A stretch of DNA of 64,000 nucleotides from Rhodospirillaceae bacterium BRH_c57 (GTDB lineage Bacteria > Pseudomonadota > Alphaproteobacteria > Rhodospirillales > Rhodospirillaceae): positions 39,507 through 103,506 of the forward strand of contig LAEA01000152.1 of NCBI GenBank assembly GCA_000961745.1, written 5' to 3'. Position 1 is the first letter of the stretch. Every line of letters starts with the position of its first letter. A program made the translations under genes and the position numbers. Shown here one piece after another: positions 2,942-23,094 of the stretch. The notes below the pieces were generated by a model. It was not told the origin of the DNA and made no database searches. It saw only the letters and a list, made by a program, of their open reading frames with translations.

Positions 2942-3048
2942 CCTCGCCGCTCCGCGTTTTGTGCAAGAAAAGCCCTATCCCGCTCGGCAACTGGCTTCGG
3001 ATCATCTCTCCTGATTGACCCTTGCTGACTCCTGAACACGTGGGTTAT

Positions 3049-3063
3049 GTTCCCCATATGTTC
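3049..3063 (+). promoter_or_regulatory. LexA/SOS box of umuDC
   Basis: GTTC, seven bases, GTTC: a perfect match to the alphaproteobacterial LexA operator. Just upstream TTGCTG (3022-3027), 17 bp, TTATGT (3045-3050) forms a plausible promoter, so the operator would cover the -10 box and start site. It predicts induction of umuDC by DNA damage. Confidence 0.85.
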
Positions 3064-3537
3064 CATGATGAGCGACATGATGCCGCCAGGACGGCGACGC
3101 TGCCTGCAGAGGCTTACGTGCCGGCTTCGGTCGGCAGCGAACCGCTGACTCTGGTTCTCTACAGCAGCCAGGTTCCGGCGGGTTTCCCGTCGCCGGCGGA
3201 CGATCACCTTGAGGGGCGTCTCGACGTCTACGAGTTGCTTGTGCGGCGTCCTGCGGCAACGTTCTTTTGCAAGGCGGTCGGTGAAAGCATGGTGGATGCG
3301 GGCATCAAAGACGGAGACCTGCTTGTCGTCGATCGTTCCATCCAGCCTCAGGCAGGCGACGTGGTGGTCGCTACGATGGACGGCGGTCTCACCGTCAAAC
3401 TGCTGCGGCAGAACGGCCTGCGGTGGGAGCTCGCCCCCGCCAACCCTGGCTTCCCTTCAATGCCGATCGACCCCGAGGAGGGCATTCAGGTGTGGGGTGT
3501 CGTGACCTATGCGATCACCCCCCTTTGTCCTCGGTGA
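3058..3537 (+). CDS. umuD: DNA polymerase V subunit UmuD (S24 self-cleaving peptidase)
   Basis: About 159 residues from the ATG at 3058. The cleavage site is Ala41-Gly42 in VPAGFPSPADD; the nucleophile is Ser77 in GESMVDAG and the general base Lys114 in TVKLL, the 37-residue Ser-Lys spacing of UmuD. In the SOS response RecA filaments trigger self-cleavage, and UmuD' then joins UmuC to form the translesion polymerase. The start is uncertain. The ATG at 3058 overlaps the LexA box and would make the mRNA almost leaderless; a TTG at 3022 in frame would place the operator inside the gene. umuC follows after 6 bases. Confidence 0.9.
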   Translation: MFHDERHDAARTATLPAEAYVPASVGSEPLTLVLYSSQVPAGFPSPADDHLEGRLDVYELLVRRPAATFFCKAVGESMVDAGIKDGDLLVVDRSIQPQAGDVVVATMDGGLTVKLLRQNGLRWELAPANPGFPSMPIDPEEGIQVWGVVTYAITPLCPR

Positions 3538-3543
3538 CGGGCT

Positions 3544-4815
3544 ATGGCCACATTCGCCATCGTCGACTGCAACAACTTCTATGTGTCCTGCGAGAGGCTG
3601 TTCCGTCCAGATCTTGAGGGCAGGCCGGTGGTCGTGCTGTCAAATAACGATGGTTGCGCCGTCGCCAGGAGCAACGAGGCCAAGGCACTTGGAATCGCCA
3701 TGGGCGAGCCTGCCTTCAAGATCCGTCACTTGGTCGACAGTCATGGGCTGGTCATGCTGTCGAGCAACTACGCCCTCTATGGCGACCTCAGCAGCCGGGT
3801 AATGGAGATCCTTGCCGACCACGCTCCCGCCTCCGAGGTTTACAGCATCGACGAGTGTTTCCTCGATCTCGACAGGTTGGCGGTGCCAGATCTCACCGCT
3901 TGGTGCCGCATCCTCCGGGACAAAGTCCGCCAGTGGACAGGAATCCCGGTGGCCATCGGCATCGGGCCGACCAAGACGCTGGCGAAGGTGGCCAACAGGC
4001 TTGCAAAGAAGTCGCCTAAGGCCGATGGGGTGCTGGATCTGGCGAATCATCCAGAGTGGGTCGAGGCTGCCTTGCGGCGTACCGAGATCGGCGATGTCTG
4101 GGGGATAGGCCGCCAGTGGGCAGGAAGCTGTCACCTCAAGGGGCTGCACACCGCTCTCGATCTCGCCCGAGCCGACGACGGTTGGGTGAAGAAGACCATG
4201 GGCAAAGTGGGTCTTCGTACCGTCCTTGAGTTGAGGGGGAGAGCGGTCCATACCCTTGAAACCGAGCCGCCAGCCCGGCAGAGCTGTTGCTGTTCGAGAA
4301 GCTTCGGGGAGGCGACCAGTGATCGGGGGCAGGTTCGCGATGCCTTGGTGAACTTCGCCGCGCGGGCTGCCCAGAAGGTCAGGAGAGACGGTCTCGCCGC
4401 CGGCACCGTGCAGGTATTCATCATGACCGACCGTTTTCGGCGGGACGAGCCGCAGCACACAGCCTCCACCTCGGTTCGTTTGTCGCCTGCCAGTTCAGAC
4501 AGCGGGGTGATCGTCTCCGCCGCCTGCAAGGCTCTGGATACCGTGTGGAAGGATGGCTTCGCCTTCAGGAAGGCGGGGGTGACGCTTGTGGACTTGGTGG
4601 ATCCAGCCACGCAACCCAGGGACCTCTTCACTTCAAAGCCGCCCCCTCAGTCAGCACAACTGATGGCCGCCCTGGACGGCATCGACCGGCGGTGGGGCCG
4701 AGGCACAATAGGTTTCGGTTTGGCGTCGAAGCAAGCCCCTTGGCGGATGCAGCAAGGGAGCAAGTCGCCCGGGTACACCACCCGATGGAATGACATTGTG
4801 GTGGTCACGTCGTGA
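3544..4815 (+). CDS. umuC: DNA polymerase V catalytic subunit UmuC (Y-family)
   Basis: 423 residues, normal length. The palm motifs [10 protein letters not shown] (catalytic Asp8) and SIDECFLDL are intact. The thumb/HhH region around [19 protein letters not shown] and the little-finger region with a C-terminal DUF4113-like end ([10 protein letters not shown]...[15 protein letters not shown]) are complete. It performs error-prone replication across lesions with UmuD'. It is cotranscribed with umuD from the SOS promoter. Plasmid-borne umuDC copies are common (for example mucAB and impCAB) and raise host mutability under stress. Confidence 0.95.
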
Positions 4816-5345
4816 CACATAGGGGACGAGCGTTCCCTCCGTGCACCTTCCACAGATTGGCACTGGTCGGGGTGATGGCGGGCTATGGAAGCCCCTCATT
4901 CAGGTTTCCCCTTTCCTCCGCGAACTCGCCCTCTCCGCCCCTCAGGATCCCACACCACCGTAAAGGAACAAAGATCCCCTTCCGCTGGCCAAGTTTCCAT
5001 TCCGTCGGACACATCCACTCCCCAAGGATCTGGCTCCCGCCAGAGGCCAGCAGAGAACCCTCCGACCACCACACTCCCCGGCACTGCCTCCAGACTCCCA
5101 CCCCATGACCAAACTCAGCCCGCCGAAGAACCCAGATCCCATATGCTGACCAGGCTCCTTTTGCCGCTCTCCAGATCCCATAACGGCCCTCCTCGACCGC
5201 CCTCCGACCCACGCTCCAAATACCGCCTCCGGCTCCTGTCCGAAGGCTCCTGAAATCCCGCTTTAGAAATCATTTAAAAGGTGGCGTCCGGACTAAGCAT
5301 TTTCACGTTTAAAATCAATAACTTATGCTGTCAACATTATTGAGA
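4816..5345. other. Gene-poor stretch before the iterons
   Basis: 530 bases without a convincing gene. The + strand is strongly C/T-rich between about 4890 and 5230, with many CTCCC runs, which leaves open frames by composition in both strands. From about 5260 it turns AT-rich, typical of the flank of a replication origin. Confidence 0.5.
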
Positions 5346-5427
5346 TGTGGGCGTAGAGCGACGACCATGTGGGCGTAGAGCGATACATTAGTGACAGCGA
5401 ATGTATCCTTTTTGTGGGCGTAGAGCG
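5346..5427 (+). repeat. Three iterons of replicon 1 (putative oriV)
   Basis: Three exact copies of TGTGGGCGTAGAGCG at 5346-5360, 5368-5382 and 5413-5427. Start-to-start distances are 22 and 45 bp, so the copies lie on one DNA face, with room for a lost middle copy. The flanks are AT-rich, and a replication initiator gene begins about 100 bp downstream. This is the expected layout of an iteron-controlled plasmid origin. Confidence 0.85.
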
Positions 5428-5460
5428 TTAGCCCTAACTCCCACATATGTGTAACACCTC

Positions 5461-5489
5461 TTGACTTTTGCACGTTAATGTATTTAATC
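5461..5489 (+). promoter_or_regulatory. Promoter of the replicon 1 initiator
   Basis: TTGACT (5461-5466), 17 bp, TTAATC (5484-5489). Immediately downstream GTTGTCATGCGGG (about 5491-5503) is a variant of the shared plasmid motif lying between promoter and gene, which could link replication control to the regulon. Confidence 0.6.
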
Positions 5490-5524
5490 TGTTGTCATGC
5501 GGGCACATTATTGGCAGGAGCATC

Positions 5525-6589
5525 ATGCGCTACAAAGAAGGGACTAGGAACCGGGAGGTTCATGAAGTGGCACCGCACGACGTGTCGATTTCGGAATGCA
5601 CGATATTCCACGTTCAGCCCCGCTCGTCTGCATCTCGCGGCATCGGGGCGGATTCCGGGGCAAGGCGGGTGTCGATGCTCGAAACGGACTGGAAGCCCCT
5701 CGCAAAGGACAAGGCGAAGGGTGAGATCGACCCCGTGGTGGAGGTTCAGTTTCTGTTCCCCCAATGGATGGGGGAGTTCCACGAAAGCGTTCTCCTTTCC
5801 ATCCTCGCCATTGCGGCGAGGAAGAGTCCTAATGCCAGAGAATTTGTGTCGGATTTCGACACCGACGAAGAAATGGACAAGCTGATCACACTCCTCGACA
5901 GCAAGGTGAAGGGCGACCGAAAGCGACTGGACAGAATCGCACTGACCACCCAGGCTTCGCCCTTGCTGAAGTCGGCAGGGAAGTCCACCAGTGCCAAGAA
6001 CTACGAGCGCCTCCACGGAGTGCTAAAGGATCTGTCCCGCGTCAACTGTGGCTACCGCTGGAAAGCGTCGGCGGAGTCAGAGGCCTGGAGCACGGCCAGC
6101 GAAAGTCTCTTCAACTACACCTTCGATGCCGACACAGGCGAAATAAGACTGAGCCTCAGTGGCAGGATAAGCCGAATCTTTGTGCCGACCCAAGACGGCA
6201 GCCTCCTTCGCTACGTTTCGATCTCCATGTCCGAGAGGTCGAAGCTCAACGGGGACGTGGCAATCCTCCTGCACTCGCACCTCTGCCGCCTCGTCTGGGA
6301 AGGGGACGGCTGCGGCAGGCCGTCGAAGAAGTTCCGGCCCGATACCATGATGAACTACGTCTACCGGGAGCCCCCCAAGGATTCACAGGAGGCCCGCGAC
6401 CGCCGCAAGGAAATCAGGAGGGCGCTCGACGCCATAGATGCCCTTCCCGGGTGGCGGGTCACCCGGTGGAACGAAGACGCTGAGAAGAAGGGGCCGAAGG
6501 ACATGATCTATTTCATCGGACGTCTGAAGACGGGCGTAGGCGATAACGCTGGCACCCTGCTCAAGTTCGGGCAGAAAAAGAAGGGCTGA
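5525..6589 (+). CDS. Plasmid replication initiator, IncQ RepC-like
   Basis: Start chosen at the ATG with GGAG 7 bases upstream, after the predicted transcript start; 354 residues. The C-terminal half shows the winged-helix pattern of IncQ-type RepC initiators: YVSISMSERSKLNGDVAILL, then HSHLCRLVWEGDG, then a DTMMNYVYR turn, then RRKEIRRALDAIDALPGW, corresponding to the DxARLIHQRLCGW...LCGYVW...RKAL..L..LGW series. It should bind the three iterons just upstream and melt the origin. The IncQ partners RepA helicase and RepB primase are not in the window. A second, unrelated initiator lies at 38580, so the molecule is a co-integrate or multireplicon plasmid. Confidence 0.7.
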   Translation: MRYKEGTRNREVHEVAPHDVSISECTIFHVQPRSSASRGIGADSGARRVSMLETDWKPLAKDKAKGEIDPVVEVQFLFPQWMGEFHESVLLSILAIAARKSPNAREFVSDFDTDEEMDKLITLLDSKVKGDRKRLDRIALTTQASPLLKSAGKSTSAKNYERLHGVLKDLSRVNCGYRWKASAESEAWSTASESLFNYTFDADTGEIRLSLSGRISRIFVPTQDGSLLRYVSISMSERSKLNGDVAILLHSHLCRLVWEGDGCGRPSKKFRPDTMMNYVYREPPKDSQEARDRRKEIRRALDAIDALPGWRVTRWNEDAEKKGPKDMIYFIGRLKTGVGDNAGTLLKFGQKKKG

Positions 6590-6697
6590 CCCATCTCAAC
6601 TGGAGGCATCCCTGCTTTGAGGCTCCGCTGGTACGGGGCCTCTGCGGTTTTCCGGTTCTACCCCGTGTCTCTGCGGCACGACCATCTGTAAGCTGGG

Positions 6698-6726
6698 TTG
6701 ACTTTTTAACACTAATGTGCCATTGT
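6698..6726 (+). promoter_or_regulatory. Putative promoter of the multi-HTH gene
   Basis: TTGACT (6698-6703), 17 bp, CATTGT (6721-6726). The -35 context GGGTTGACTTTTTAAC departs from the shared motif after TTGAC. Confidence 0.5.
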
Positions 6727-6768
6727 GACTTCATGTAGAGGGTGTCGGACCCTAGGGAGGATAGTGGA

Positions 6769-7752
6769 ATGGGCAAGGGGAGCAGCGTTATCGTATCCCG
6801 AGGGATCGAGCTCGGCGACGTCGAGATCGCGGCGGTCGTGTCCCGACTGCTGGACGAGGGGGTGACGATCAAGGACGCGGCCGAGATGATCGGCGTGAGC
6901 CGCCCGACGATCTACAATCGGTACAAGAAGGTCGCCGACGAGCGGAAGGCCGAGATCGCTTCCGTCCTCGCGTCGTCCGACTTTGAGACCATCCGTGAGG
7001 CCGTTCTGGACATCCCGAAGGTAAAAGCCCGTGCTAAGGAGCAGCAGGAGGCCGATCACCGCGAGATGCTCCGCTTGGCCAAGGATGGCATGCCCCGTGC
7101 GGCGATCGCTGCCAAGTACGGCATCACCAAGACCCGCCTGCTCCAGATCTTCAATGAGATGGGCTACCACGGTCGCATCACGGGCATCTCCCGCGAGGGT
7201 GCGGTCGAGGAGGCCCTCGCCCTGAACGCCAAGGGCATGACCCCCGCCGGCATCGCCGTGAAGTTCGGCATCCGCCTCGACCGCCTGTTCGACGTCATGG
7301 ACGAGAAGGGTCAGCGGTTTCCCCTCCCCGACCACGCGGTCGCGATGGCCGACGCAGGGTTCTCACCGAAGGAGATCGCCCGAGCCGTCGGGTGGGAAGA
7401 GCGTCGGCTGAAGAAGGCCCTCGACGACGAAGCCGGAATCCATCTCACCTCTTACGAGGGGCACCCGCACGAGATCGAGATGCTGACCATGATCCTGCAG
7501 GGCGTGCCGAAGCAACAAATTCTCGACCGCCTTGGGGTCGGCTTCCGTGCCCTCAACGCCGCAGAGCAGCGGGCGGGCTTCCCTCCGCTGGAAGAGCATG
7601 TCCATGCGATCCGCAAAGGGGTCGCCGAAGGTCGCGGCATCGACGAGATGGCCCTCGCCCTCGGTGTCCACCGCAACCAGGTGGCAACAGTGATGGGCTG
7701 CATTTCCAACATGGAAGAGGGCGACGAACTCGCTCCGAGGGGGATGGCATGA
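6769..7752 (+). CDS. Protein built from an array of helix-turn-helix repeats
   Basis: Start at the ATG following GGGAGGATAGTGGA; 327 residues. At least five, probably six, HTH units follow one another. They are around GVTIKDAAEMIGVSRPTIYNRY, GMPRAAIAAKYGITKTRLLQ, GMTPAGIAVKFGIRLDRLFD, GFSPKEIARAVGWEERRLKK, a looser unit at QGVPKQQILDRLGVG, and GRGIDEMALALGVHRNQVAT. No oligomerisation, ligand or catalytic domain is visible. The first unit resembles the Hin-like HTHs of the VirD4-like genes at the left edge. A good terminator follows, so it is transcribed alone. A second multi-HTH protein is at 22224. Such an array could read a long DNA site or bridge repeats; function unknown. Confidence 0.75.
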   Translation: MGKGSSVIVSRGIELGDVEIAAVVSRLLDEGVTIKDAAEMIGVSRPTIYNRYKKVADERKAEIASVLASSDFETIREAVLDIPKVKARAKEQQEADHREMLRLAKDGMPRAAIAAKYGITKTRLLQIFNEMGYHGRITGISREGAVEEALALNAKGMTPAGIAVKFGIRLDRLFDVMDEKGQRFPLPDHAVAMADAGFSPKEIARAVGWEERRLKKALDDEAGIHLTSYEGHPHEIEMLTMILQGVPKQQILDRLGVGFRALNAAEQRAGFPPLEEHVHAIRKGVAEGRGIDEMALALGVHRNQVATVMGCISNMEEGDELAPRGMA

Positions 7753-7786
7753 GATTGCCCCAGGAGGACGCACCCAAGTACGAGAG

Positions 7787-7807
7787 AGGGCTTCGGCCCT
7801 TTTTTTA
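7787..7807 (+). terminator. Rho-independent terminator
   Basis: Stem AGGGC/GCCCT with a TTCG tetraloop followed by seven T. It ends the multi-HTH gene. Confidence 0.9.
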
Positions 7808-7828
7808 GCTCCATAAACGTAAAAACGC

Positions 7829-7862
7829 TTGACTTATTTGCAAAATGGTGTCACTGTATAAA
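7829..7862 (+). promoter_or_regulatory. Putative promoter upstream of a 19-codon ORF
   Basis: TTGACT (7829-7834) with CACTGT 17 bp downstream, overlapping a TATAAA (7857-7862). It lies directly before the GGGAGGGG ribosome site of the short ORF at 7892. Confidence 0.4.
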
Positions 7863-7891
7863 CATGAAAAGGCCATTGTTGGGAGGGGACG

Positions 7892-7951
7892 ATGAAAGAT
7901 ACCGCATTTAACTGTTGGCATGTATACTTAAGCGCGCTAGAAATTATATAA
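7892..7951 (+). CDS. Possible 19-residue leader peptide
   Basis: ATG after GGGAGGGGACG, an excellent ribosome site, coding for MKDTAFNCWHVYLSALEII and a TAA. It overlaps the shared-motif promoter at 7915-7943 that drives the next genes, so its translation could affect expression from that promoter, or it may be decayed. Low confidence because of size. Confidence 0.3.
   Translation: MKDTAFNCWHVYLSALEII
7915..7943 (+). promoter_or_regulatory. Shared-motif promoter for the 7993-8615 gene pair
   Basis: CTGTTGGCATGTATA: -35 TTGGCA (7915-7920), 17 bp, TAGAAA (7938-7943). Confidence 0.6.
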
Positions 7952-7992
7952 GGTGCTCGCTGTGCGGGTGGGGCTAACTTCTGGGAGGGAAG

Positions 7993-8301
7993 ATGATGGC
8001 GAAACGAGCTAGCACGAGCTACTCGACGGAGGAATGGGAGGGCTTTTTCTGGAGGCTGAGGGTCAGGCAAAGGCTGACTGTCTCGGTGATAGCGAAGAGA
8101 ACGCAGGTGGCCCCGCAGACGGCCTCGGGCCGCTTCAAGAACATCGAGGCCAGACTAATCGAGGCCCAATCCAATAACGCGAACGCGATAACCGACGAGG
8201 CCAAGACATACGGCGTCTCCGCAGAGGCTGCCGAGGAACACTTTTCCAAAGTTGCAGGGTACGTCCATCACGCTGCCCCCATAATGAAGGAGGCCGCGTG
8301 A
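7993..8301 (+). CDS. Small HTH-like protein of unknown function
   Basis: 102 residues; GGGAGGG precedes tandem ATGs. The segment VSVIAKRTQVAPQTASGRFKNIEARL looks like a helix-turn-helix of the kind found elsewhere on this plasmid. The C-terminal half is helical without recognised family. It overlaps the next gene by four bases (ATGA), so the two are translationally coupled. Confidence 0.6.
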   Translation: MMAKRASTSYSTEEWEGFFWRLRVRQRLTVSVIAKRTQVAPQTASGRFKNIEARLIEAQSNNANAITDEAKTYGVSAEAAEEHFSKVAGYVHHAAPIMKEAA

Positions 8302-8615
8302 TGGACGGCGAGATGATATTCGACTCAGTGGCTGGCGGCCTGCCTGGTTACGTCGTCAAGAAGGGTGGCGGAACGCGGGAGATCCAGATCTCCGCCCTCC
8401 TCGGCCCGAGGCTTGTCCTGCTTCGCAGCGGGCAGGTTGAACTGCTTCTGTCGGAGGATGGCACCGCTTACGGTTCGATCACCGCCACGCCGAATGGCGG
8501 AGGGTGGGAAATCGCCGCTAACCCTGACGGGCTCGACATCCCTGAATCATGCATTTCATCGGTCGATGGCTTCATCGCCTACTCTCGGCGACTTCTCAGC
8601 GGATACTGCTCCTGA
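8298..8615 (+). CDS. Hypothetical protein
   Basis: 105 residues, coupled to the preceding HTH gene by an ATGA overlap. Alternating hydrophobic strands (RLVLLRSGQVELLLSEDG) suggest a small beta-rich fold. No family recognised. Its last 60 bases overlap the 3' end of the large convergent gene at 8556-10727. Confidence 0.55.
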   Translation: MMDGEMIFDSVAGGLPGYVVKKGGGTREIQISALLGPRLVLLRSGQVELLLSEDGTAYGSITATPNGGGWEIAANPDGLDIPESCISSVDGFIAYSRRLLSGYCS

Positions 8616-10727
8616 GCTATGTTTGACGTACCCTTCAAGTGCCTTGAGCACGGGGATGAGGTGCCGCGTCTCCGCCTCCTTGATCTCCTCGCCGGCAACG
8701 GCCCGCAGGCAGTTCGCCAGCCACCGTGCAGGAGATGACTTGCCCAGAAGCGGGCCTTCCCGCCGCTCCGGTGTCGCCGTCTCCAGAACCGTTCTCGCGC
8801 ACCCGTAGAGAAGCCAGACGTCCGGAGGTGGCACGGGTGAGGTGTGCAGCCCCGCCTTCGGTACCAGCTTACCCTGCGACACCAGGGTCACGAGGCTCTC
8901 CATCCCCGCCACGGGGTCGCCACCCAACAAGGATAGGGACACCGCGTTCCGTGCTGCCTCCCCTCCCCGTTCGAGAAGGGAGGTTGCCGTTTCTCGCTCA
9001 GCGGCGGCGGCAATCTCCCGAAGACCTTCCATGGAGGCTGCTTCCGCCACCGCGTCGACGGATGCCCAAAAGCTTTTGCCCGGCGATCGGCACCGCTCGG
9101 TCCAGTCCGGCAGGTTCCAGCGGGCGGCTTTGTCCTTTCCCTCTCCCATGGCCCGTCTCGCTGACTCGCAAGCTTTGGCAACGGCTTCCTCGCCCGCGGC
9201 CAGCAGGACGGCTTCCGCGGCGGATTCGACAAGCGTCCTTTTGAGCCGCTGTCCCGCCGCACGGGACAATCGTTTGCGTGCCTTCCCAGCTTCGTCCTTC
9301 TTCTGCCCCTTGATCTTCCGCCCGTTGATCACGTCCCAATCGGAGGCTTCTGATGGCTCTGAAAGGTCGATGAGGCCGCATGCCACCAGGGCGATAGCGG
9401 CATTGGCTCCTTTCGACGCCATCGCCTCGCTGTACTCAGGGCTTGGATCTGGCGACACCAAAGTCTTGGCAGACCTCGCGGCCCGCTCCACCCCAGGCAG
9501 GAGATGTTCGAGGTACCTGGTGCGGACTCCCCTCCCCCTCTGCCAGGCGAACGCAGGGACGTGCGACCACTCCCCTGACAAGGCTTCGGCGGACAGCCCA
9601 AAGAGGCGTTCCATGCACTGCCTTCTGCGGTCGCGGTTGCCAAGAACGAAGGCGGCCATCGCGAGGGCGGCGTCGGCCTGTGCCACGGCCCGCTCGAATA
9701 TCGCCTCCGCGACTTCCTCGCTCCCGCCCTCGGGATCCCGCCTCCCCTCAACGACGACGACGATGTCCTCACCGGTCTCCGGATCGAGGTCCGGAATGAG
9801 CAGGGTCTCGGTGTCCATCGCCGTCAGGGGTTGAAGGTCGTATCGGGCGAGGAGCAGGGACGCGGCACGACCACCCCACCGCAGGGCGAGAGCCTTTTCA
9901 GCAAGAGCGAGCACCCGCATCGGGTTCACCCTGTTGAACCTCGCGAGCCCCTTTCCGCCCCTGACCTTACCCTTGTTCGCCCACATGATGTCGGCCACGG
10001 CCACCCTGACGGCTCCCGTCTCAAGGAGTGCCCTCGCCTCCTCCCACTCCACGGAACCTGGGAGCGGAGGGTTGTCCTTCCAAAGGTGGCTCCTGCTTCC
10101 TATCTCGGCATTCGCGGCGGCAATGGCGTCAGCTAGATCGTGCCTTTCGGAGAGGCGCGACAGGAACCGCCTGACCCCCCACGGGAAGCCTGCGGTCTCG
10201 AATCCTTCGCTGGCGGGACTGGGGCCGACCATGGTCCACCCATCAAAGTCACCGTCCCACCACGACTCACCGCCTTCTGGCGAGAACCGCCCCTCTTCGT
10301 TTATCCAGTCGCCGAAACCGATGGCGACCGCTGATGCAGCAAGACTGGCTGCGTGTGCGGCTTCCACGACGGCGTTGACACGGGCCATGGAAACCCTCTC
10401 GCCATCGGATCCCCAGACTTCGCAGGTAGCCTCCCATACCTCAAGCACGGACGCCGCCCACCGCCGGACCTCAGAAGCACCCTCTGAACCCGCCTGATGC
10501 CCGAACTTCTCGGCGAGGCGGTCGATTCCGCTGTCAGTCGACACGAAGGGCCAAGTGTCCAACACGGCATGGCTCCCGCCCGACTCCCCGTGGGCGTCGC
10601 GGGACTTGCGGGACAGTGTCACCCTGCCGAAACCCTTGCCGTCGCCGCCTGCGACCGTCGACGGCAGAAGACGACGCCACGCCTCAGCCACCGTCCTACC
10701 CCAGTCCTCGTCGTCCCGCCTCGCCAT
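8556..10727 (-). CDS. Large hypothetical protein, alanine- and charge-rich
   Basis: About 723 residues, starting at the ATG reading MARRDDEDWG. No signal peptide, membrane segment or known motif was found. It has long helical stretches rich in A, E and R (EAHAASLAASAVA, AEAVLLAAGEEAVAKACES) and a centre with TETLLIPDLDPETGEDIVVV. The codon pattern is clean over the full length, so it is real. It is convergent with, and overlaps by 60 bases, the gene ending at 8615. It lies alone and opposite to the neighbouring pilus locus. Function unknown. Confidence 0.7.
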   Translation of the reverse strand: MARRDDEDWGRTVAEAWRRLLPSTVAGGDGKGFGRVTLSRKSRDAHGESGGSHAVLDTWPFVSTDSGIDRLAEKFGHQAGSEGASEVRRWAASVLEVWEATCEVWGSDGERVSMARVNAVVEAAHAASLAASAVAIGFGDWINEEGRFSPEGGESWWDGDFDGWTMVGPSPASEGFETAGFPWGVRRFLSRLSERHDLADAIAAANAEIGSRSHLWKDNPPLPGSVEWEEARALLETGAVRVAVADIMWANKGKVRGGKGLARFNRVNPMRVLALAEKALALRWGGRAASLLLARYDLQPLTAMDTETLLIPDLDPETGEDIVVVVEGRRDPEGGSEEVAEAIFERAVAQADAALAMAAFVLGNRDRRRQCMERLFGLSAEALSGEWSHVPAFAWQRGRGVRTRYLEHLLPGVERAARSAKTLVSPDPSPEYSEAMASKGANAAIALVACGLIDLSEPSEASDWDVINGRKIKGQKKDEAGKARKRLSRAAGQRLKRTLVESAAEAVLLAAGEEAVAKACESARRAMGEGKDKAARWNLPDWTERCRSPGKSFWASVDAVAEAASMEGLREIAAAAERETATSLLERGGEAARNAVSLSLLGGDPVAGMESLVTLVSQGKLVPKAGLHTSPVPPPDVWLLYGCARTVLETATPERREGPLLGKSSPARWLANCLRAVAGEEIKEAETRHLIPVLKALEGYVKHSSGAVSAEKSPRVGDEAIDR

Positions 10728-10901
10728 TCCCAAGCCCCATCATTTCTTGTCATGTAAACTTACTTTGGACGTACATATAGTTCCAGTTGAAGGGTGGACA
10801 CAAGAATATAGCTGACTAAGCGGCAACCAAACCTGTGCTCTTCAGCCTGTTATTTTGTCTAATGCTCCTGCCGAAATTACGTGACAGCAGTTGACTAGGT
10901 G

Positions 10902-11478: not shown

Positions 11479-13014
11479 ATGACGGAGAGGGGAACCATGA
11501 GGATCGCGAGAAGGTCTGCCGCTGCGGCCTGCGTTTTACTGGCGGCTTCGGCCTGTGCCCCGACTGCGGGGGAGTTTCGTGCCGATACCCTTGCCGGCAA
11601 GCACATTCCCAAGGAGGGCGAATACCGCTTGATGAGGGATGAATTGGCGGCATGGAACCGCATCCCGTCCGTGAGCGAAATCGAGATCCCGAGAGACGCT
11701 CTGGCACCGCACCCGGTGGTGCCGCCACTGTCGGGGGAGATATCGAATGCCCGCATCGATCTGACCCTGGTGCCGCAGGCGACTCTTGAACACCTGGCTT
11801 TCGCTTTGGACTCCTCGGGCATCCTCGTCTCCTTTGACGGCGAGGACGAGGGGCTTCGGGATATTCGGGTGCCCTTCCTCTCCCACAGCGGGGACCTCTT
11901 TTCCTTGGCCGAGAGGCTTGAGGCCAGTGCAAACGTGACGCTAGCCCATTCACCCGGCGGAGGCGTGATGCTGACCCGCTCGACGCAGTGGGCCTTCCGC
12001 ATCCCGATCCAGAACAAGGAACTGATGGAGGCCCTGTCCGGCGACATCCAGTCGCTGGGAGCGACGGACGTCCAGATCAGCCCCCGCGTCGGCGAGATCG
12101 TCTACAAGGTCAGTCCCCGCACCCAGCGGGACGTCATCGGGCCGTTCCTTACCAAGGCCAGGTCGAACTTGGCGGCGGTGACACTTCAGGTGGCGGTGAT
12201 GACCGTCACCTCGACGGCGAAGAAGGAACGCGGCATCGACTGGAGCAGCGTGGACGTCCAGGCGGTGTCGAAAGAGAGGGTTGCGGGGATGGATTCCTCC
12301 GCGTCGGACGCGATACCTGGTCTTGTCGGTCGGGCCGCGAAGGCCGGGCTCGCAGGAATAGCCGGAAGCGGCACTCTAGGGGTTGGTGGAGCAGTGATCG
12401 GCATCGCCGGCGCCGTGAAGTGGATGGATTCCATGGGGCTGGCGAAGTCCCGTCAGAGCGTGGAGCTCACGACCATCTCCGGCGTGCCCGTGCAGATGAG
12501 AAACGGCAACTCCATTCCTTACGTGTCGAGCGTCGGCATCTCGACGAACACCGGCACGAACAACACCCTCGGCGAGGCCCAGACGGCCACTGCGGAAGAC
12601 GGCCTGACGGTCGATCTGAACCCGCAGTACGATGACTTGAGCGGACTGGTGACCCTCGACGTCGACATCAAGGCGAACAAGGTCGAACTGGTCGAACTCA
12701 GTGCCGGACAGCAGCTCGGCACGATCACGCAGCCGAAAAGCCAGGATCACGAGATCACCTCCAACGTGCCGATGCGGGCGGGCGACGTGGCGGTCATCGA
12801 CGGCACCCGCGTGACCACGCTCCAAGACGGTGCAAGCGGACCTTTGTCGGGCCTCATCGCTCCCCACGAACTTACCAACGGCCAGAGCATGAGCTTGTTC
12901 ATTCTGGTGAGGCCGACGGTCGTCAGGTTTGTTCCCGCCGACGTCAAGGGGGCATCCTCTGTTCCCTACGGAGACGTGACGAGCCGCATAGGAGGCGTCG
13001 ATGATGAACGTTAA
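11479..13014 (+). CDS. Type IVb pilus secretin, outer-membrane lipoprotein (PilN/BfpB-like)
   Basis: 511 residues. The N-terminus is a lipoprotein signal with lipobox LAASAC (Cys26, or Cys20 if the ATG at 11497 is used). An N-domain region follows, with a ring-forming segment (LAFALDSSGILVSFDGE...RDIRVPFLSHSGDLFSLAERL). The secretin core includes LTTISGVPVQMRNGNSIPYVSSV, TVDLNPQYDDLSGLVTLDVDIK and the closing MRAGDVAVIDGTR and SLFILVRPTVV motifs. The glycine/alanine-rich insert near residues 275-315 could be the membrane-spanning gate. It forms the outer-membrane channel for the pilus. Its overlap with the PilO-like gene shows one operon. Confidence 0.85.
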   Translation: MTERGTMRIARRSAAAACVLLAASACAPTAGEFRADTLAGKHIPKEGEYRLMRDELAAWNRIPSVSEIEIPRDALAPHPVVPPLSGEISNARIDLTLVPQATLEHLAFALDSSGILVSFDGEDEGLRDIRVPFLSHSGDLFSLAERLEASANVTLAHSPGGGVMLTRSTQWAFRIPIQNKELMEALSGDIQSLGATDVQISPRVGEIVYKVSPRTQRDVIGPFLTKARSNLAAVTLQVAVMTVTSTAKKERGIDWSSVDVQAVSKERVAGMDSSASDAIPGLVGRAAKAGLAGIAGSGTLGVGGAVIGIAGAVKWMDSMGLAKSRQSVELTTISGVPVQMRNGNSIPYVSSVGISTNTGTNNTLGEAQTATAEDGLTVDLNPQYDDLSGLVTLDVDIKANKVELVELSAGQQLGTITQPKSQDHEITSNVPMRAGDVAVIDGTRVTTLQDGASGPLSGLIAPHELTNGQSMSLFILVRPTVVRFVPADVKGASSVPYGDVTSRIGGVDDER

Positions 13015-13750
13015 GAACAACGAGGCCGCCCTGCCCTCACTCGCCATCGGCGGTTTCATCGGGTTCCCCAAGAAGAAGCAGGCTCTCGCCTTCGCCCGCG
13101 ACAAGGCCGAGAAGTGGTTCGAGGGGCAGGAATACTGTTGGATAGCCGTTCATCGGCACGAGTACGACAGGGACGGAGGTGTGCAGGTCGGCTGGCTGTG
13201 GGAAGCCCATCAGGGCGGAGACGGCCTGTCGTTCATGCCTTCGGCGGTCGCAGCCCTTGAAGCCGGCGAGGATTCCGCCGTCATCCCGACCCTGACGCGT
13301 GACCTTGTCGTCGAACCGCGTTCGGGCGGGGCCGTCGAATGCCTGATCTTGCCGGAGGAGCCCAGCCGCCGCCCCCCGACGGAAGGCGTCGGCTTCATCG
13401 GGCCGAAGTGCCGGCCTCTGAGGCAAAGCGGCATCCACTACCTGTTCGTCGGCCTTCTCGCCCTCGTGCTCGGAGCATCCGCCCTGGGATACGGAGTGAC
13501 GGAGCGGGTGTCGAGGGTCGCGGCAACCTCCGTCAAACCGCTGACTTCCCAACAGATGTCCAACTTGCCGTCCTCCCGCGTCTCGGCTCTGAAGAACGTG
13601 CCCGACGATAAGCGTCTCGTACTCCTCAAACTGACGGGCGGCCTCGGTGCGGGAGGCAGGTGGACACAGGATTTCGAGGATCGCCCAGTGATAGAGGGAG
13701 GGTCTGAAGATGTCCTGCCGCCCCCGCCCGCCGAAGAAGGAGCCGAATAA
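13001..13750 (+). CDS. Bitopic inner-membrane pilus assembly protein (PilO-like)
   Basis: 249 residues; ATG after AGGAGGCGTCG, overlapping the secretin gene by 14 bases. A cytoplasmic N-terminal domain of about 145 residues is followed by one membrane helix (HYLFVGLLALVLGASALGYGV) and a periplasmic tail ending in a proline-rich stretch. This order (cytoplasmic ATPase-binding part, TM, periplasmic part) is that of PilO/BfpC-type proteins, which link the assembly ATPase to the envelope. Sequence resemblance is weak; position and topology carry the call. Confidence 0.6.
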   Translation: MMNVKNNEAALPSLAIGGFIGFPKKKQALAFARDKAEKWFEGQEYCWIAVHRHEYDRDGGVQVGWLWEAHQGGDGLSFMPSAVAALEAGEDSAVIPTLTRDLVVEPRSGGAVECLILPEEPSRRPPTEGVGFIGPKCRPLRQSGIHYLFVGLLALVLGASALGYGVTERVSRVAATSVKPLTSQQMSNLPSSRVSALKNVPDDKRLVLLKLTGGLGAGGRWTQDFEDRPVIEGGSEDVLPPPPAEEGAE

Positions 13751-14124
13751 TGATAGCGAAGGAAGCGGGAATCCTCGCAGGGGCCGTCGCAGGGGTCGTC
13801 GGCCTTGCAATGGGAGCGTCCGGGGCTTGGCTGTCCCTGTCTCCCGTCTCGGCGGAGAAATCAGAATCACAAGTGATCGCCGAGTGCATCATGCGGTTGC
13901 AAAGCTCCGTTCCCGGAATCGATGCCTCCCCCGACGGTCGGGGCGTCGCTGCCTCAAACACGAACCCGTCGACCCCAGGGTTCGCCTGGCTGTTCGAGGC
14001 GACCCAAGCCACCCTTTCTTGCCCGGGATGGGAACTTGAAGAGTTCTGTGCTGGAGAGAAGTGCGGGCATTCGGGGTGGAGCATAAAGATGTCACCCATC
14101 ATAAATAAGCCTGCCAAGAGTTGA
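13750..14124 (+). CDS. Small membrane-anchored, cysteine-containing pilus-locus protein
   Basis: 124 residues, start overlapping the previous stop (TAATG). The N-terminal hydrophobic segment (AGILAGAVAGVVGLAMGASGAWL) may be a signal anchor. Four cysteines follow in the mature part, among them the pair EEFCAGEKCGHSG, likely disulfide-bonded in the periplasm. No family recognised. It may be a pilotin or alignment factor for the secretin complex. Confidence 0.55.
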   Translation: MIAKEAGILAGAVAGVVGLAMGASGAWLSLSPVSAEKSESQVIAECIMRLQSSVPGIDASPDGRGVAASNTNPSTPGFAWLFEATQATLSCPGWELEEFCAGEKCGHSGWSIKMSPIINKPAKS

Positions 14125-14149
14125 CATGCGGATTTACTGGCAACACGAT
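14121..14149 (+). promoter_or_regulatory. Shared-motif promoter of the first pilin gene
   Basis: AGTTGACATGCGGATT: consensus -35 TTGACA (14121-14126), 17 bp, CACGAT (14144-14149), overlapping the stop of the previous gene. It gives the major-pilin candidate its own transcript, as is usual for an abundant subunit. Confidence 0.7.
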
Positions 14150-14204
14150 AAATCAACCGTAGAGCGGTACAGGATCGCCGAGTCAGGAAACAAGGAGATA
14201 GTTG

Positions 14205-14651
14205 ATGTTCCAGATAATCGCACTTATCGTCGTCATTGCCCTCGGCGCCATCGTTGCCTCCGGCGGCACATCAGCCATTGGTGACGTCTTCTTCAGCAAG
14301 AGCGCCGATGCCCTCGCTCAGCAGATGGCGAGTACAATGTCGCAGATCGAGACCGCCGACCGTGGCCGTCAGGCCGAGACTGGCAGCGTCTCGGCGACTA
14401 CCACTCCGACCACTGTCGACAGTTCGCACGCCCTCTTCACGGGTGAATACCTCGGCATCGTGCCGACAGTTCCAAACAGCATCGCTTTCGGCATCAACTA
14501 CAGCCTCGGCACCGCCTCGGATGCCACAACCATAACCGCCGTTATCACATCAGAAGACGTCTGCACGGAGATCGGCACGGCGGGGGCCCTGCATCCGAAG
14601 CTATCCTGCACATGGGGTGTCGGTATCGGAACGGTAACATACAACTACTGA
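14205..14651 (+). CDS. Leaderless type IV pilin-like protein 1 (major pilin candidate)
   Basis: 148 residues from the ATG with AAGGAG 7 bases upstream. The protein begins MFQIIALIVVIALGAIVASGG. It starts directly at the hydrophobic helix that in ordinary pilins begins with the mature F-T-L-I-E after a cleaved leader. Here the leader is reduced to Met and Glu5 is replaced by Ala. About 95 polar, T/S-rich residues follow, with a C-terminal cysteine pair (EDVCTEI, LSCTWG) like the pilin D-region disulfide. It has its own promoter, and paralogues lie at 15924 and 17852. It is proposed as the pilus subunit; processing by a prepilin peptidase looks impossible from this start. Confidence 0.7.
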   Translation: MFQIIALIVVIALGAIVASGGTSAIGDVFFSKSADALAQQMASTMSQIETADRGRQAETGSVSATTTPTTVDSSHALFTGEYLGIVPTVPNSIAFGINYSLGTASDATTITAVITSEDVCTEIGTAGALHPKLSCTWGVGIGTVTYNY

Positions 14652-14698
14652 TCGTAGGTAAGGGCTGACTCCCCTTTGTCTGCCAGAAGGAGGTAGGG

Positions 14699-15850
14699 AT
14701 GTATGTAGCTCAGATGGTGGGGGCGATTATCGCCCTTTCAGCGGTTGGTGTCGTAACGTGGAGCACCTGGGTTTCGGTCGCGGGCTCGTCTGCCTACTCG
14801 CAAAGCGTCCGCAACTCCACCGCACTTGAAGAGGCTGCGGCGGCGATCTCGGCATCGGCGATCTCCTACGGCGGCGTCGTGACCCTTCCCGCTCCAACCG
14901 CAGACGGCGGCGTTCCCGACTGGGTGTCCGCGCAGACCGTGACCCCTTGGGGGAAGGACTTCCGCTACTGCCCCTATGCGACGGGTTCGGGAGGTGCGGC
15001 CTCCACCGCCAACGGCTATCAGATCGGCACGCTTTCTCTGGCGGGGCGGGATTACGTCGTCTCCTCCGATGCCCCTACGGTGTCGGGAACCGCGTTCGCG
15101 ATCATCGCTGGCATGCCCGGCGAGGATGCTCCAGCCTGCTCCGACGTGTCCTATGCGGGCGGCGAATGGAGCGTTCCTGATGGGCGTGTGCGTGGATACG
15201 CCCTCTCCGCCATCAGAGGGTTTCGGACGGCTTCGGGTGTCATGCACGTTTCGTCCGCCGGAACGGGCACAGGGCTGTCGTCCGCCGATCCCGCCTCGCT
15301 TTCAGACGCTATCGGTTGGTGGGAAGCCTCTCGCCCGCAGTCGATGGAGTTCGTCCTCGCCGCTGGTTCCTACGCACTGCCGGCCTCCGTGTCCGGCGAT
15401 GTGGGTGGAGATGTCGTTTTCGACGCCGCTTCCGGAGTGAGCCTGACGGGCGACCTGTCCATGCCTTCCGACATCAGGCTCTCCGGGGTCTCCGTTTCGG
15501 GCACCGTGACCGTGAGGCAGGGTACCGACGCCTTCGTGAGCGGCGGCAGCTTCGGGGCGATCAACGTCTATGGCGAGGCTTCCATAGGCGGATCCGCGAC
15601 ACTGTCCTCCCTCGCGGCTGCGGCCGGCGGCAGGGTCTCCGTTTCCGCGGCATCGGTGGGCAGCCTCACCGCCACGACCGGCGGCACCGCGACGTTCGCA
15701 TCCGCTTCCGCAACGGCATCTGCGTCGGCGTCGGACTCCGGCGGCACGATAACCGCTTCCGGAGGAGCCGCGATAGGCACGGAGACGGTGGGGGTCGGCG
15801 GCCGAATATGCACGGAATCAGGCGGCACTTGGTCATGTATCAGCGGTTGA
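14699..15850 (+). CDS. Large PilV-like minor pilin / tip adhesin with beta-helix domain
   Basis: 383 residues; ATG after AAGGAGGTAGGG. It starts MYVAQMVGAIIALSAVGVVTWS, again a membrane helix with no leader. The next part (TPWGKDFRYCPY, TLSLAGRDYVVSSD) resembles the globular region of PilV-type tip pilins of IncI-like thin pili. From about residue 180 there are short repeated strands with G, S and V (SGTVTVRQGTDAFVSGGSFGAINVYG), suggesting a right-handed beta-helix. It ends in a two-cysteine loop (GRICTESGGTWSC). The likely role is the adhesive tip that recognises recipient cells. No shufflon-type inverted repeats are obvious at its 3' end. Confidence 0.65.
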   Translation: MYVAQMVGAIIALSAVGVVTWSTWVSVAGSSAYSQSVRNSTALEEAAAAISASAISYGGVVTLPAPTADGGVPDWVSAQTVTPWGKDFRYCPYATGSGGAASTANGYQIGTLSLAGRDYVVSSDAPTVSGTAFAIIAGMPGEDAPACSDVSYAGGEWSVPDGRVRGYALSAIRGFRTASGVMHVSSAGTGTGLSSADPASLSDAIGWWEASRPQSMEFVLAAGSYALPASVSGDVGGDVVFDAASGVSLTGDLSMPSDIRLSGVSVSGTVTVRQGTDAFVSGGSFGAINVYGEASIGGSATLSSLAAAAGGRVSVSAASVGSLTATTGGTATFASASATASASASDSGGTITASGGAAIGTETVGVGGRICTESGGTWSCISG

Positions 15851-15876
15851 AGGGTTGCTAATAAGCACTTGTAGTG

Positions 15877-15899
15877 TTAACATGAGGATCATTGGATAA
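15877..15899 (+). promoter_or_regulatory. Shared-motif promoter of pilin 2
   Basis: GTAGTGTTAACATGAGGATC: -35 TTAACA (15877-15882). The -10 box is unclear (GGATAA begins nearer than 17 bp). Confidence 0.5.
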
Positions 15900-15923
15900 G
15901 TCGAATGGTCCGGAGATGCCGAA

Positions 15924-16364
15924 GTGTTCCAAATCATAGCAGTCATAGTCGCCATCGCCTTGGGCGGCCTGATCTCGGTGGGATGGGCATCCGGCTTCGG
16001 CGACACCTTCTTTGAGAAGCGGGTTGAGGGGGACGTGTCGAAGTACAACAACCTGTCCGCGCAGATCAAAGGAGCTCTCAGCGCCCACAAGATGGACATG
16101 GGTTCCTATCCATCGGGGTGCCTCACCGAACTGAAGTCCGACGGGTATCTCCAGGACATCGCAATGGAGATCGAGGACGGCAACACGTGGTCATGCGAGG
16201 CCGACAAGCTGACTGTGAGCGGTGTCTCCGACGATGTCTGCATCGCCGTCCTCATGAACGACGGGTGGGAATCCACCGGGTGGACGGAGTCCGACGGCGT
16301 GCCGTCCTGTCCTGGCGACAACACCACGACACCCTACCCTTCCTGCTGCGACGACGGGAGCTAG
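15924..16364 (+). CDS. Leaderless type IV pilin-like protein 2
   Basis: 146 residues from a GTG with CGGAG 8 bases upstream. The N-terminus MFQIIAVIVAIALGGLISVGW is closely similar to pilin 1 and also lacks a leader and Glu5. A helical spine follows (SKYNNLSAQIKGALSAHKMDMGSYPSG), then a small cysteine-rich head with seven cysteines. The sequence GSYPSGCLTELKSDGYL has the look of the alpha/beta loop of type IV pilins. The ATPase gene starts four bases after its stop. It is probably a minor pilin. Confidence 0.65.
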   Translation: MFQIIAVIVAIALGGLISVGWASGFGDTFFEKRVEGDVSKYNNLSAQIKGALSAHKMDMGSYPSGCLTELKSDGYLQDIAMEIEDGNTWSCEADKLTVSGVSDDVCIAVLMNDGWESTGWTESDGVPSCPGDNTTTPYPSCCDDGS

Positions 16365-16368
16365 AGCA

Positions 16369-17841
16369 ATGATGTTGGGGGAAGCAATTGTCGCGAGGGG
16401 GCTGATCACACCGAAGGAGCTCGACTACGCCCTGTCCGTCCAGAAGGTGACGGGCAGCAAGCTCGGGCACGTCCTCGTCAGCAAGCGGTTCATCCGCCAT
16501 TCCGATCTCGTCAAGATCCTGGCGGAGATCAGTCCCGACAGCTTGACGAGCGAGTCCGTGCGGGACATCAGGCCGACGACGCGGGAACTGAGGCTCCACA
16601 AGGTCATCATAGCCGCCGAAACGCGGGACGAGGTGTTCGCGGCCACGCTCGGAAGCCAGAGGCAGGCCCACCTCATGCTCAAGGGCTACTATCCGGACAA
16701 GGCGATCAGATGGGTGCCTTTGGCTCCCGAGAAGATGGATTCCTTCATCGAGAGGGCGGACTTCCTCGCCGAGACGGCGAACGTCGGAGAGAACACCGGC
16801 GACCGCATGTTAAGCAAGCTCATCGACAAAGCTGTCCGCATGGGGGCATCGGACATACACATCTCCGCGGACGAGGACTGCTATCACGCACTGGCACGCG
16901 TCGATGGCTCCCGGCAGTTGATACACATGGGGACGCGGGAGGAGCACACCCAGCTCCTCGCACGCATCAAGGATATCGGCGGCATGGACACGGCGGAGAC
17001 CCGCAACGTCCAGGACGGCGGCTTCAACGAGGAGCGCGACGGCCACGACCTGTCCTACCGCATCAACTCCATCCCGACCGAAGCCGGCGCCACCGAGAAG
17101 GTGACGATCAGAATCCTTGATCCAGACCAGGCGAACCCGAGCTTGGAGGATCTGGGAATCACCCGCCTCGACCAGTGGAAGAAGGGCATCTCCCGGGACA
17201 GGGGCATCTGCATCATCGCCGGGCCAACGGGCTCGGGCAAGTCGACCACCCTCCAAGCCACCGTCAGGGGCTTCGACCGCGTGGAGAAGGCGGTCTACAC
17301 CATCGAGGACCCCGTCGAGTACAGGATACCCCTCGTCGATCAGGTCAACGTCAACCCGCTGGTCGGGCTGGACTTCGCAAAGGGCCTCAAGGGATTCATG
17401 CGTGCCGACCCCGATATCATCGTCGTCGGCGAAATTCGCGACGAGGAAACGGCCCGACTAGCGATGAAGGCCGCCGAGACCGGACACCTGGTGCTGGCTA
17501 CGGTCCATGCAGGGTCGCCGCGTGCCGTTCTGAACCGCCTCAAAAACCTGGGCATGGACATGCACTCCCTGCGTGAAGAACTGCGGGCGATCATGGTGCA
17601 GAGGCTTGTCCGCACGCTGTGCGCCGAGTGCAAGGGAGGTTGTGCCCACTGCGGCGGCACCGGGTACAGGGGAAGGACGCTGGTCTCAGAGTGCCAGAGC
17701 TTCACCGCCACCGAGGACTCCCGGCGGCTGTTCGAGACCGCCGATGTGTGGTGGCCGACGCTTGAGGACGACGCACGGCTGAAGATCACGCAGGGGATCA
17801 CCGACGAGAGCCAGGTCGAACGCCTGCTCTCCGACATCTGA
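16369..17841 (+). CDS. Pilus assembly ATPase, GspE/PilB/PilQ family
   Basis: 490 residues. The N-terminal MshEN-type domain (LGEAIVARGLITPKELDYAL...GSKLGHVLV) is followed by the N2 domain (ASDIHISADEDCYHALARVDG) and the C2 RecA-like core. The core has Walker A GPTGSGKST near residue 285, the Asp box/Walker B region (MRADPDIIVVGEIRDEETA) and the His box (GHLVLATVHAG). The tetracysteine zinc motif CAECKGGCAHCGGTGYRGR near residue 418 is complete. It powers pilus polymerisation at the cytoplasmic face. All key residues are present, so the machine should be active. Flanked by pilin genes 2 and 3. Confidence 0.95.
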   Translation: MMLGEAIVARGLITPKELDYALSVQKVTGSKLGHVLVSKRFIRHSDLVKILAEISPDSLTSESVRDIRPTTRELRLHKVIIAAETRDEVFAATLGSQRQAHLMLKGYYPDKAIRWVPLAPEKMDSFIERADFLAETANVGENTGDRMLSKLIDKAVRMGASDIHISADEDCYHALARVDGSRQLIHMGTREEHTQLLARIKDIGGMDTAETRNVQDGGFNEERDGHDLSYRINSIPTEAGATEKVTIRILDPDQANPSLEDLGITRLDQWKKGISRDRGICIIAGPTGSGKSTTLQATVRGFDRVEKAVYTIEDPVEYRIPLVDQVNVNPLVGLDFAKGLKGFMRADPDIIVVGEIRDEETARLAMKAAETGHLVLATVHAGSPRAVLNRLKNLGMDMHSLREELRAIMVQRLVRTLCAECKGGCAHCGGTGYRGRTLVSECQSFTATEDSRRLFETADVWWPTLEDDARLKITQGITDESQVERLLSDI

Positions 17842-17851
17842 GGGGGACCTT

Positions 17852-18277
17852 ATGTACCACGTCATAGCGATCATCTTGGTAATGGCCCTGATGGCGATCA
17901 TGAGCGGCGTCGGGGTCCTCTACATCAAACCTGACTCGCACCACCGTTCTCAGGTGGCGACGGGGGCCGCCGCCGGGTTCTCGGGTCTTTTGCAGGGGGC
18001 AAAGGCATTCCGTGCGAACGCTGGGCGTGCTCCGGCGACGCTTGCGGAGACAGGCGAGGGTATCGGCTTCCTGCCTCCGTCGTTCAAGGGGCTGTCCTGG
18101 TCTCTTTCCTCGGCCCGCCTGTGCCTGTCGGGCATGGTATCCGAAGCGGCGTGGGAAGGTCTCTCCGAGGCCTCGGACGGCCTCCCCTCAGGCTACGCGG
18201 TCGGAACCGCATGTGACGGAACCGGAAGTAAACCGGCGGCTTGGCCTGCCTTCGTCGCCGCTTCGGCACCGATCTGA
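17852..18277 (+). CDS. Leaderless pilin-like protein 3
   Basis: 141 residues; ATG after GAGGGGGACC. It starts MYHVIAIILVMALMAIMSGVGVL, the same leaderless hydrophobic start seen in the other pilin-like proteins. The following helix-like part contains an A-G-rich stretch and FRANAGRAPATLAETGEG, reminiscent of the pilin spine/loop. Two cysteines frame the head (ARLCLSG, GTACDG). Its position between the ATPase and platform genes fits a minor pilin. Confidence 0.6.
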   Translation: MYHVIAIILVMALMAIMSGVGVLYIKPDSHHRSQVATGAAAGFSGLLQGAKAFRANAGRAPATLAETGEGIGFLPPSFKGLSWSLSSARLCLSGMVSEAAWEGLSEASDGLPSGYAVGTACDGTGSKPAAWPAFVAASAPI

Positions 18278-18291
18278 ACAAAGGGGGAATA

Positions 18292-19491: not shown

Positions 19492-19730
19492 TCGGACTGG
19501 AAACAGGCATCGCCTTCATCGACGGGGATCACGCAGGGCTTGCCCGCATCGTGTCGGAATATGTCCTCGTGGCGTCCGATGGGCTCCCACCAGACTCCCT
19601 TTAGGACATCCTCGGGGTGATGGCGAGAGAGACGGAACACCATTTTGCGGTCGAGGGGGACGCCTTCGAACGGGCGGGGATCCAAGATGCCTTCAGGCAC
19701 CAACATAAACGTATGAATAAAGACGGGTGA
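19488..19730 (+). pseudogene. Hemerythrin-like gene interrupted by an in-frame TAG
   Basis: ATG overlaps the stop of the platform gene (ATGA). The frame reads 38 codons (ETGIAFIDGDHAGLARIV), meets TAG at 19602-19604, then continues for 41 codons with ETEHHFAVEGDAFERAG and FRHQHKRM before TGA. The metal-ligand histidines and glutamate of bacterial hemerythrins are split over the stop (IDxxH, HFxxE, HxxH). It is shorter than the intact copy at 26570. It is either a recent pseudogene, a gene needing TAG readthrough, or two expressed halves. Confidence 0.7.
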
Positions 19731-20431: not shown

Positions 20432-20555
20432 GCGGGAAGCACCTTCTTCGCGGGCGTCCACCCCCGATCCCTGTTGGCTCCCGCAGTGCGTCCATCGCGA
20501 TCCCTTTTAGCGCCCGCAGTGCGTCCATACGGCCCCCAACTTGTACATAGGCGGA

Positions 20556-22223: not shown

Positions 22224-22817
22224 ATGGCTTTCGATCTTTCTGAGGCGGTGGCCCTCCGTGCTGAGGGGATGTCGATGACGGGCATAGGCTCGAAGCTCGG
22301 CTGCACGAAGCAGGCGGTCCAAAAGCGGCTGTCTGGATTCCGGAAGGACGCCGAAAGGATGGCCGATGGCGGCGTGCCGGTCTCCGACATCGCCCAGTCT
22401 CTGGCCGTCGACGCCGAGGCCGTGGAGGCCGCCCTGGACGGCAGGCTTTCCGCTCCCGCCTCCAAGGCCCGCAGGGTATCGCTCTCAGGCTGGCAAGACG
22501 CCGCCGTCGCCTTTGCGAGGAAGCGTATACCGGAGGGCGGCCCGGAGACCGACGCAGAGGCCGCCGCGATTGTCGAAGAGATAGCCGAGAAGCACGGCAA
22601 GACCGAACGCTGGGTCAGGGCGGTCCTGCGGGAGGCCGGCATATCGCTCTCACGTCGGACGACGGAAGAAGAACGGGCACACATCGTGTCCCTCGTCCGT
22701 GCCAAAATGACCTACAGGCAGGTCGCGGAAGCGACGGGATGGAGCGTCTCGATGGTCGAGAAGGCCGCACAGGCGGCAGGTGTCGCCTGCGGACGGCAAG
22801 GGCGGAGACCCGCCTAA
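22224..22817 (+). CDS. Second multi-HTH protein
   Basis: 197 residues with three or four helix-turn-helix units: GMSMTGIGSKLGCTKQAVQKRL, GVPVSDIAQSLAVDAEAVEA, EEIAEKHGKTERWVRAVLREAG and KMTYRQVAEATGWSVSMVEKAA. As with the 6769 gene there is no effector domain. Upstream TTGACC and TATAAA-like elements (about 22168-22195) could be a promoter without the shared motif. Candidate plasmid regulator or DNA-organising protein. Confidence 0.7.
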   Translation: MAFDLSEAVALRAEGMSMTGIGSKLGCTKQAVQKRLSGFRKDAERMADGGVPVSDIAQSLAVDAEAVEAALDGRLSAPASKARRVSLSGWQDAAVAFARKRIPEGGPETDAEAAAIVEEIAEKHGKTERWVRAVLREAGISLSRRTTEEERAHIVSLVRAKMTYRQVAEATGWSVSMVEKAAQAAGVACGRQGRRPA

Positions 22818-23094
22818 CCGAGCCTAGTTTTCTATGTCACCAGAAAGCCCCCTGCCCCAGACCATTTTGCGGTTAATCTTTGCAGTAGTTCGGGTGCATC
22901 ATCCTCTGATTGATGCGGATTCCCCCTGTTTGCCGACATCACCGCGGAAGACGCCTTTTCTGTTGCCGTGAAGGCCGCCTACATGGGACGGCCTTCAACA
23001 TTTTCGGGTGCCACGCCTAGCTTAGCGGGCCTGCTTTGGGTGTCTTTCTGGCTCCCGCGTGGCGTCCGCAGGGCATGTCTTGCGCTCCCACAAG

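Follow-up and report, generated by a model that had tools for sequence, protein, structure and literature searches.

What does a protein that appears to consist of nothing but helix-turn-helix (HTH) units do beside a plasmid replication gene? HTHs mostly act in dimers to which each subunit contributes a single unit. The question is raised by a 327-residue protein encoded in a window of 64,000 nucleotides, the whole stretch of DNA analyzed here, which belongs to a contig of Rhodospirillaceae bacterium BRH_c57. The contig (103,506 bp, not closed) was taken as a plasmid because it carries repC, a second initiator of the RepA_C type, parA and iterons. We refer to the gene of interest as the string gene; its position and those of the other features are given in Table 1.

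Six HTH units in one protein

The string gene has a high coding score and is preceded by GGGAGG, a good ribosome-binding site. Its product comprises six diverged tri-helical HTH units with short linkers. In Pfam, three stretches matched HTH_23 (E 5e-22) and two matched HTH_7 (E 2e-16), while an HTH_38 match at residues 278-303 covers unit 6. Searches of Pfam, NCBIfam and PHROGs returned only HTHs and, where larger families were hit, their HTH portion. The AlphaFold2 model, predicted from the single sequence without an alignment (pLDDT 70.5), contains six H-turn-H-turn-H units, with the lowest confidence in unit 5 (pLDDT about 46-57). Outside the units, the model shows only short linkers, tails and one long helix, predicted at residues 71-105, which joins units 1 and 2.

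We also performed a jackknife test, in which a profile made from the other five units was scored on the left-out unit and on 3000 shuffles. Units 1 to 5 beat the shuffles (4, 0, 0, 2 and 14 per 3000, respectively); unit 6, which has the weakest sequence signal, was marginal (100 of 3000). A profile built from three other string proteins only gave the protein 42.6 bits, compared with a shuffle maximum of 9.1 (n=1000). Any two units share 3-13 of 32 residues. The first-pass annotation had described five to six consecutive, diverged HTH units and nothing else in the 327 residues, and had named a structure without separate HTHs as the outcome that would speak against it. Pfam, the jackknife test, the outside-trained profile and the structure model agree with this description and bring the count to six. 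With at least four consecutive HTH units and no other recognizable domain, the protein is an all-HTH string in the sense used here.

Of the four units in the second HTH string of the window, three are clear and one is degenerate, in agreement with the structure model of that protein. BLAST likeness between the two proteins is limited to the HTH units (best 25 bits); this makes them proteins of one kind but does not support paralogy, or descent of the two complete strings from one ancestor. The earlier description of this gene as a shorter relative is borne out in part.

Table 1. Positions of the features discussed in the text (window numbering unless a contig prefix is given)
Feature	Position	Strand	Details
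IHF consensus, exact match AATCAATAACTTA	5313..5325	+	AT-rich part of origin
ACATTATTG, candidate operator	5334..5342	+	3 bp before iteron 1
Three iterons ATGTGGGCGTAGAGCGA	5345..5428	+	at 5345, 5367, 5412
ACATTAGTG, candidate operator	5385..5393	+	just after iteron 2
repC promoter-like element	5461..5489	+	TTGACT-N17-TTAATC
ACATTAACG, degenerate copy	5473..5481	-	inside repC promoter
ACATTATTG, candidate operator	5505..5513	+	between repC promoter and start codon
repC, IncQ-type replication initiator	5525..6589	+	354 aa; PF06504, E 6e-9
String gene promoter-like element	6698..6726	+	TTGACT-N17-CATTGT
ACATTAGTG, candidate operator	6710..6718	-	inside string gene's promoter
String gene, six HTH units	6769..7752	+	327 aa; 984 nt from ATG 6769
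Units of string protein			aa 17-58, 95-130 (about), 142-179, 188-222, 233-268, 274-313+ (AlphaFold2 model)
Intrinsic terminator after string gene	7782..7806	+	GAGAGAGGGC-TTCG-GCCCTTTTTTT; z -3.35
Second, shorter HTH string	22224..22817	+	197 aa; units about aa 5-39, 40-71, 107-137 (degenerate), 148-184
Phased TCC arrays	36713-36845, 23051-23380, 20466-20540, 19561-19604, 24040-24083		intergenic
Phased TCC arrays outside window	C75:25820-26000, C75:14213-14303		intergenic

Strings in other mobile elements

Close homologues of the string protein were found neither in PLSDB, INPHARED, IMG/VR and the GTDB representatives (about 85,000 genomes) nor among 98 relatives, and no relative was found that keeps both the string gene and the ACATTANTG sites described below. 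Proteins of the same architecture were recovered by other routes. A class-level search gave L010, a protein of 295 aa from another genome with six HTH units, which were read by eye from translations; its 58-kb contig also carries parB-like and parA-like genes. An order-level profile search gave L020, from a third genome, with four regular units. With L020 as a probe, we obtained a six-unit protein of a Euzebya megaplasmid (WP_216826637.1) and ORF18 of Bacillus phage PM1, with seven units. A fold search against viral models recovered the PM1 protein independently; its other matches included proteins from Mycobacterium phage DS6A, proteins from Caulobacter phage CcrSC and, weakly, a D5 protein. 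PM1 ORF18 (L028:2192-3286) is annotated as an RNA polymerase sigma factor and is probably misannotated.

Like the 327-aa protein, the Euzebya, PM1, L010 and L020 strings consist of nothing but HTH_23-like units, spaced about 48-53 aa apart; their identity to it is about 24-25% at best. They differ from it in that their units are mostly more alike, in being more basic and in having other neighbours. A unit order inherited in common with the L010 string is not supported, since permuted units score as well as the true order, which ranks 28th of 720. All-HTH strings thus recur in mobile elements, but the comparison gives no support for inheritance of the string as a whole. Identity as a transposase, invertase or sigma factor was rejected, as the matches are limited to the HTH and a catalytic domain is absent, as was identity as a defence gene, for which there is only a 24-residue HTH match to mad1. 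No whole-protein structural match was found in the PDB, where the best hits were sigma factors with a TM of about 0.15.

The repC replicon and a word shared by two promoters

The string gene is a single-gene unit with its own upstream region and intrinsic terminator. It follows immediately on repC, an IncQ-type gene with iterons; half of the repC product aligns with RepC proteins of plasmids at about 30% identity. Among the matches listed, no iteron cluster comparable to the one at this origin occurs elsewhere in the genome. DnaA boxes were absent from 4801-5530 with up to one mismatch allowed, and Rfam gave no RNA element at 4800-8700. The first 21 bases of the promoter-like element of the string gene are identical to the repC promoter at 17 positions, and TTGACTTTTnnACnnTAATGT is common to the two upstream regions. 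Both elements have poor -10 boxes, and a consensus promoter scan recovered neither.

The two upstream regions also share the word ACATTANTG. Of its four copies in the window, three lie in the iteron/repC promoter region and the other in the promoter of the string gene, compared with about 14 copies in the 3.9-Mb genome; a fifth match on the contig is likewise intergenic. To allow for the choice of this word by inspection, the control accepted every 9-mer with one gap that was present at least three times in the first region and once in the second, and an equal word arose in 2 of 1500 dinucleotide shuffles. The copy after iteron 2 is flanked by an inverted repeat, GATACATT-N10-AATGTATC. The word itself is near-palindromic (ACATTAATGT), a form that would suit a dimer as well as a string; RepC, a small HTH-like protein encoded at 7993-8301 or a host factor are other candidate binders.

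Because the string gene adjoins repC and a word is common to both promoters, we consider the most likely reading to be that the string protein binds DNA and regulates the replicon of the plasmid that encodes it, a tentative assignment to which we give a probability of roughly 0.35. The locus has the layout of a plasmid replicon repressor: the initiator gene and iterons are adjacent, and an operator-like word, present as candidate operators, lies in the promoters of both the putative repressor and the initiator. In the mechanism that we infer, the DNA-competent units, most likely 1, 2, 5 and 6, would bind ACATTANTG-type operators at several places: between the iterons, across the repC promoter and in the promoter of the string gene itself. 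By occupying at least two of these sites simultaneously, the string would bridge them, would repress repC and itself, and would limit or organize initiation at the iterons. The two roles first proposed for the protein, regulator of a regulon with a shared motif and organizer of plasmid DNA, are still inferred ones. The presence of the common word in its own promoter and in the repC/iteron region favours a local replicon regulator, and the wider set of phased TCC motifs described below could also be its target.

The surroundings of the replicon contain several other features. Genes for an umuD-like protein and a umuC-like error-prone polymerase (3022-4815) lie directly 5' of the repC origin. 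Just 5' of the repC promoter, ACTCCCACAT at 5437-5446 is an inverted partial iteron (TGTGGGNGT) and also matches array words upstream of parA. On the minus strand, 8556-10733 encodes a 725-aa protein that neither Pfam nor PADLOC assigns to a family. Genes for an MshL-like secretin and for a GspE/PilB-like ATPase bearing a c-di-GMP-binding N-terminal domain belong to a cluster at 11479-19491, possibly a plasmid-borne type IV pilus or secretion system. A second replication module (38120-38350 and 38397-39620) encodes the RepA_C-type initiator, which is preceded by CGCCAGAAGAAGGCAG repeats in steps of about 33 bp, so that the contig has two initiators.

Charge of the protein and of its recognition helices

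The first-pass annotation had also suggested that the string might read a long site or bridge several of them. The string protein is acidic overall (pI 6.2, net charge -3.6), whereas the pI of other string proteins is 9-12. This overall acidity also counts against the replicon-regulator reading. Its six recognition helices are mutually different, being acidic in units 3 and 4 and mildly basic in units 5 and 6. Given the acidic helices of units 3 and 4 and the pI, DNA reading by all six units is probably not to be expected, and the idea of one long site read by every unit is weakened.

The same features speak for a protein that is mostly a protein-binding scaffold, with units 1 and 2 on DNA and units 3 to 6 in contact with RepC, the polymerase or each other. 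The long helix between units 1 and 2 agrees with such a division, as does the precedent of archaeal Cbp1, whose third HTH recruits Cren7 (PMC10883916). However, the mildly basic helices of units 5 and 6 fit it poorly and no partner is known, and we regard a scaffold as rather unlikely.

Phased TCC arrays on the same contig

We also considered whether the string protein binds repeats elsewhere on the plasmid. In intergenic regions of the contig, TCC(C/G) is repeated at exact 11-bp steps, a pattern nearly exclusive to this contig within the genome. Five-fold runs of YCC at exact 11-bp spacing number 15 in the genome, and 13 of them lie on the 103-kb contig, all intergenic there; lag 11 stands out among lags 7-15. 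By analogy, the arrays resemble stbDR or a centromere. The array at 36713-36845 precedes parA, that at 23051-23380 follows the four-HTH gene, and that at C75:14213-14303 precedes an operon that encodes a ParA-like ATPase along with a putative coupling protein of large size.

These positions, together with the concentration of runs on the contig, would be expected of a string that binds the arrays with one HTH per helical turn and serves, like StbA, as a segregation, architecture or regulon protein. Nevertheless, the locus of the string gene itself is without an array, and comparable arrays are absent from the other string-bearing contigs searched (5.5 kb only in the case of the Euzebya plasmid). 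A repeated site would also favour alike recognition helices rather than six unlike ones, and StbA, a single small protein, reaches this phasing on its own. We regard array binding as rather unlikely. The array at 23051-23354 has a 66-bp period, equal to 6 x 11 bp, and six units would span 66 bp; this match is for now a numerical coincidence. It seems very improbable that the string reads the phased repeats, one unit per DNA turn, in a regulon or centromere system with a string length matching the 66-bp period; if it did, it would be a modular, TALE-like DNA reader made of HTHs.

It is also quite improbable that the string protein coats or bridges plasmid DNA with low or no specificity in the manner of T5 D5: PHROG 323, 'D5-like transcriptional regulator', aligned to residues 22-170 (E 1e-10), spanning units 1-3, and the viral fold matches include a D5 protein, but the acidic protein contrasts with the strongly basic L010, L020 and PM1 strings, and an HU-family gene on the plasmid (28795-29139) already offers such a function.

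Comparison with known systems

The architecture of the string protein is real, unusual and recurrent yet unnamed, and a role in the replicon is plausible. That such strings also exist in phages and in a plasmid from a different phylum suggests that a class of DNA-binding proteins of mobile elements has been overlooked. Among families with partial likeness, the T5 D5-like regulators of PHROG 323 are phage regulators that match only part of the string. KorA/TrfB (PF16509) scored 25.2 bits on unit 1, just below the cut-off of 26.7, and the string protein is not a member by this measure; KorA/TrfB is a plasmid repressor with an HTH and has a role like that proposed here, but it is a small dimeric protein with one HTH in each subunit. 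StbA of plasmid R388 acts on the 9-bp stbDR repeats, whose 2-bp spacing gives an 11-bp phase, in several promoters (PMC3098194). This phase resembles that of the arrays on our contig, whereas StbA contains no HTH string, and a link between the string protein and the arrays is hypothetical.

To our knowledge, the sole characterized analogue is archaeal Cbp1, which has three HTHs. The two proteins are alike in having HTH domains in series, with short linkers, derived by duplication and accompanied by little else. They differ in that Cbp1 has three units rather than six, is archaeal and binds a CRISPR repeat; a tandem-repeat scan found no CRISPR-like array in the window. The Cbp1 model NF040595 did not match the six-unit protein and gave 17 bits for the shorter string, far from the cut-off of 140. 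The 327-aa protein is not a Cbp1 member, yet by analogy it may work in a similar mode. The three HTHs of Cbp1 line up 5' to 3' on one CRISPR repeat (PMC10883916). The string protein has short candidate targets on its own plasmid. With six HTHs in a row, a bacterial protein would form a natural modular reader of DNA, of a kind with Cbp1 but twice its length.
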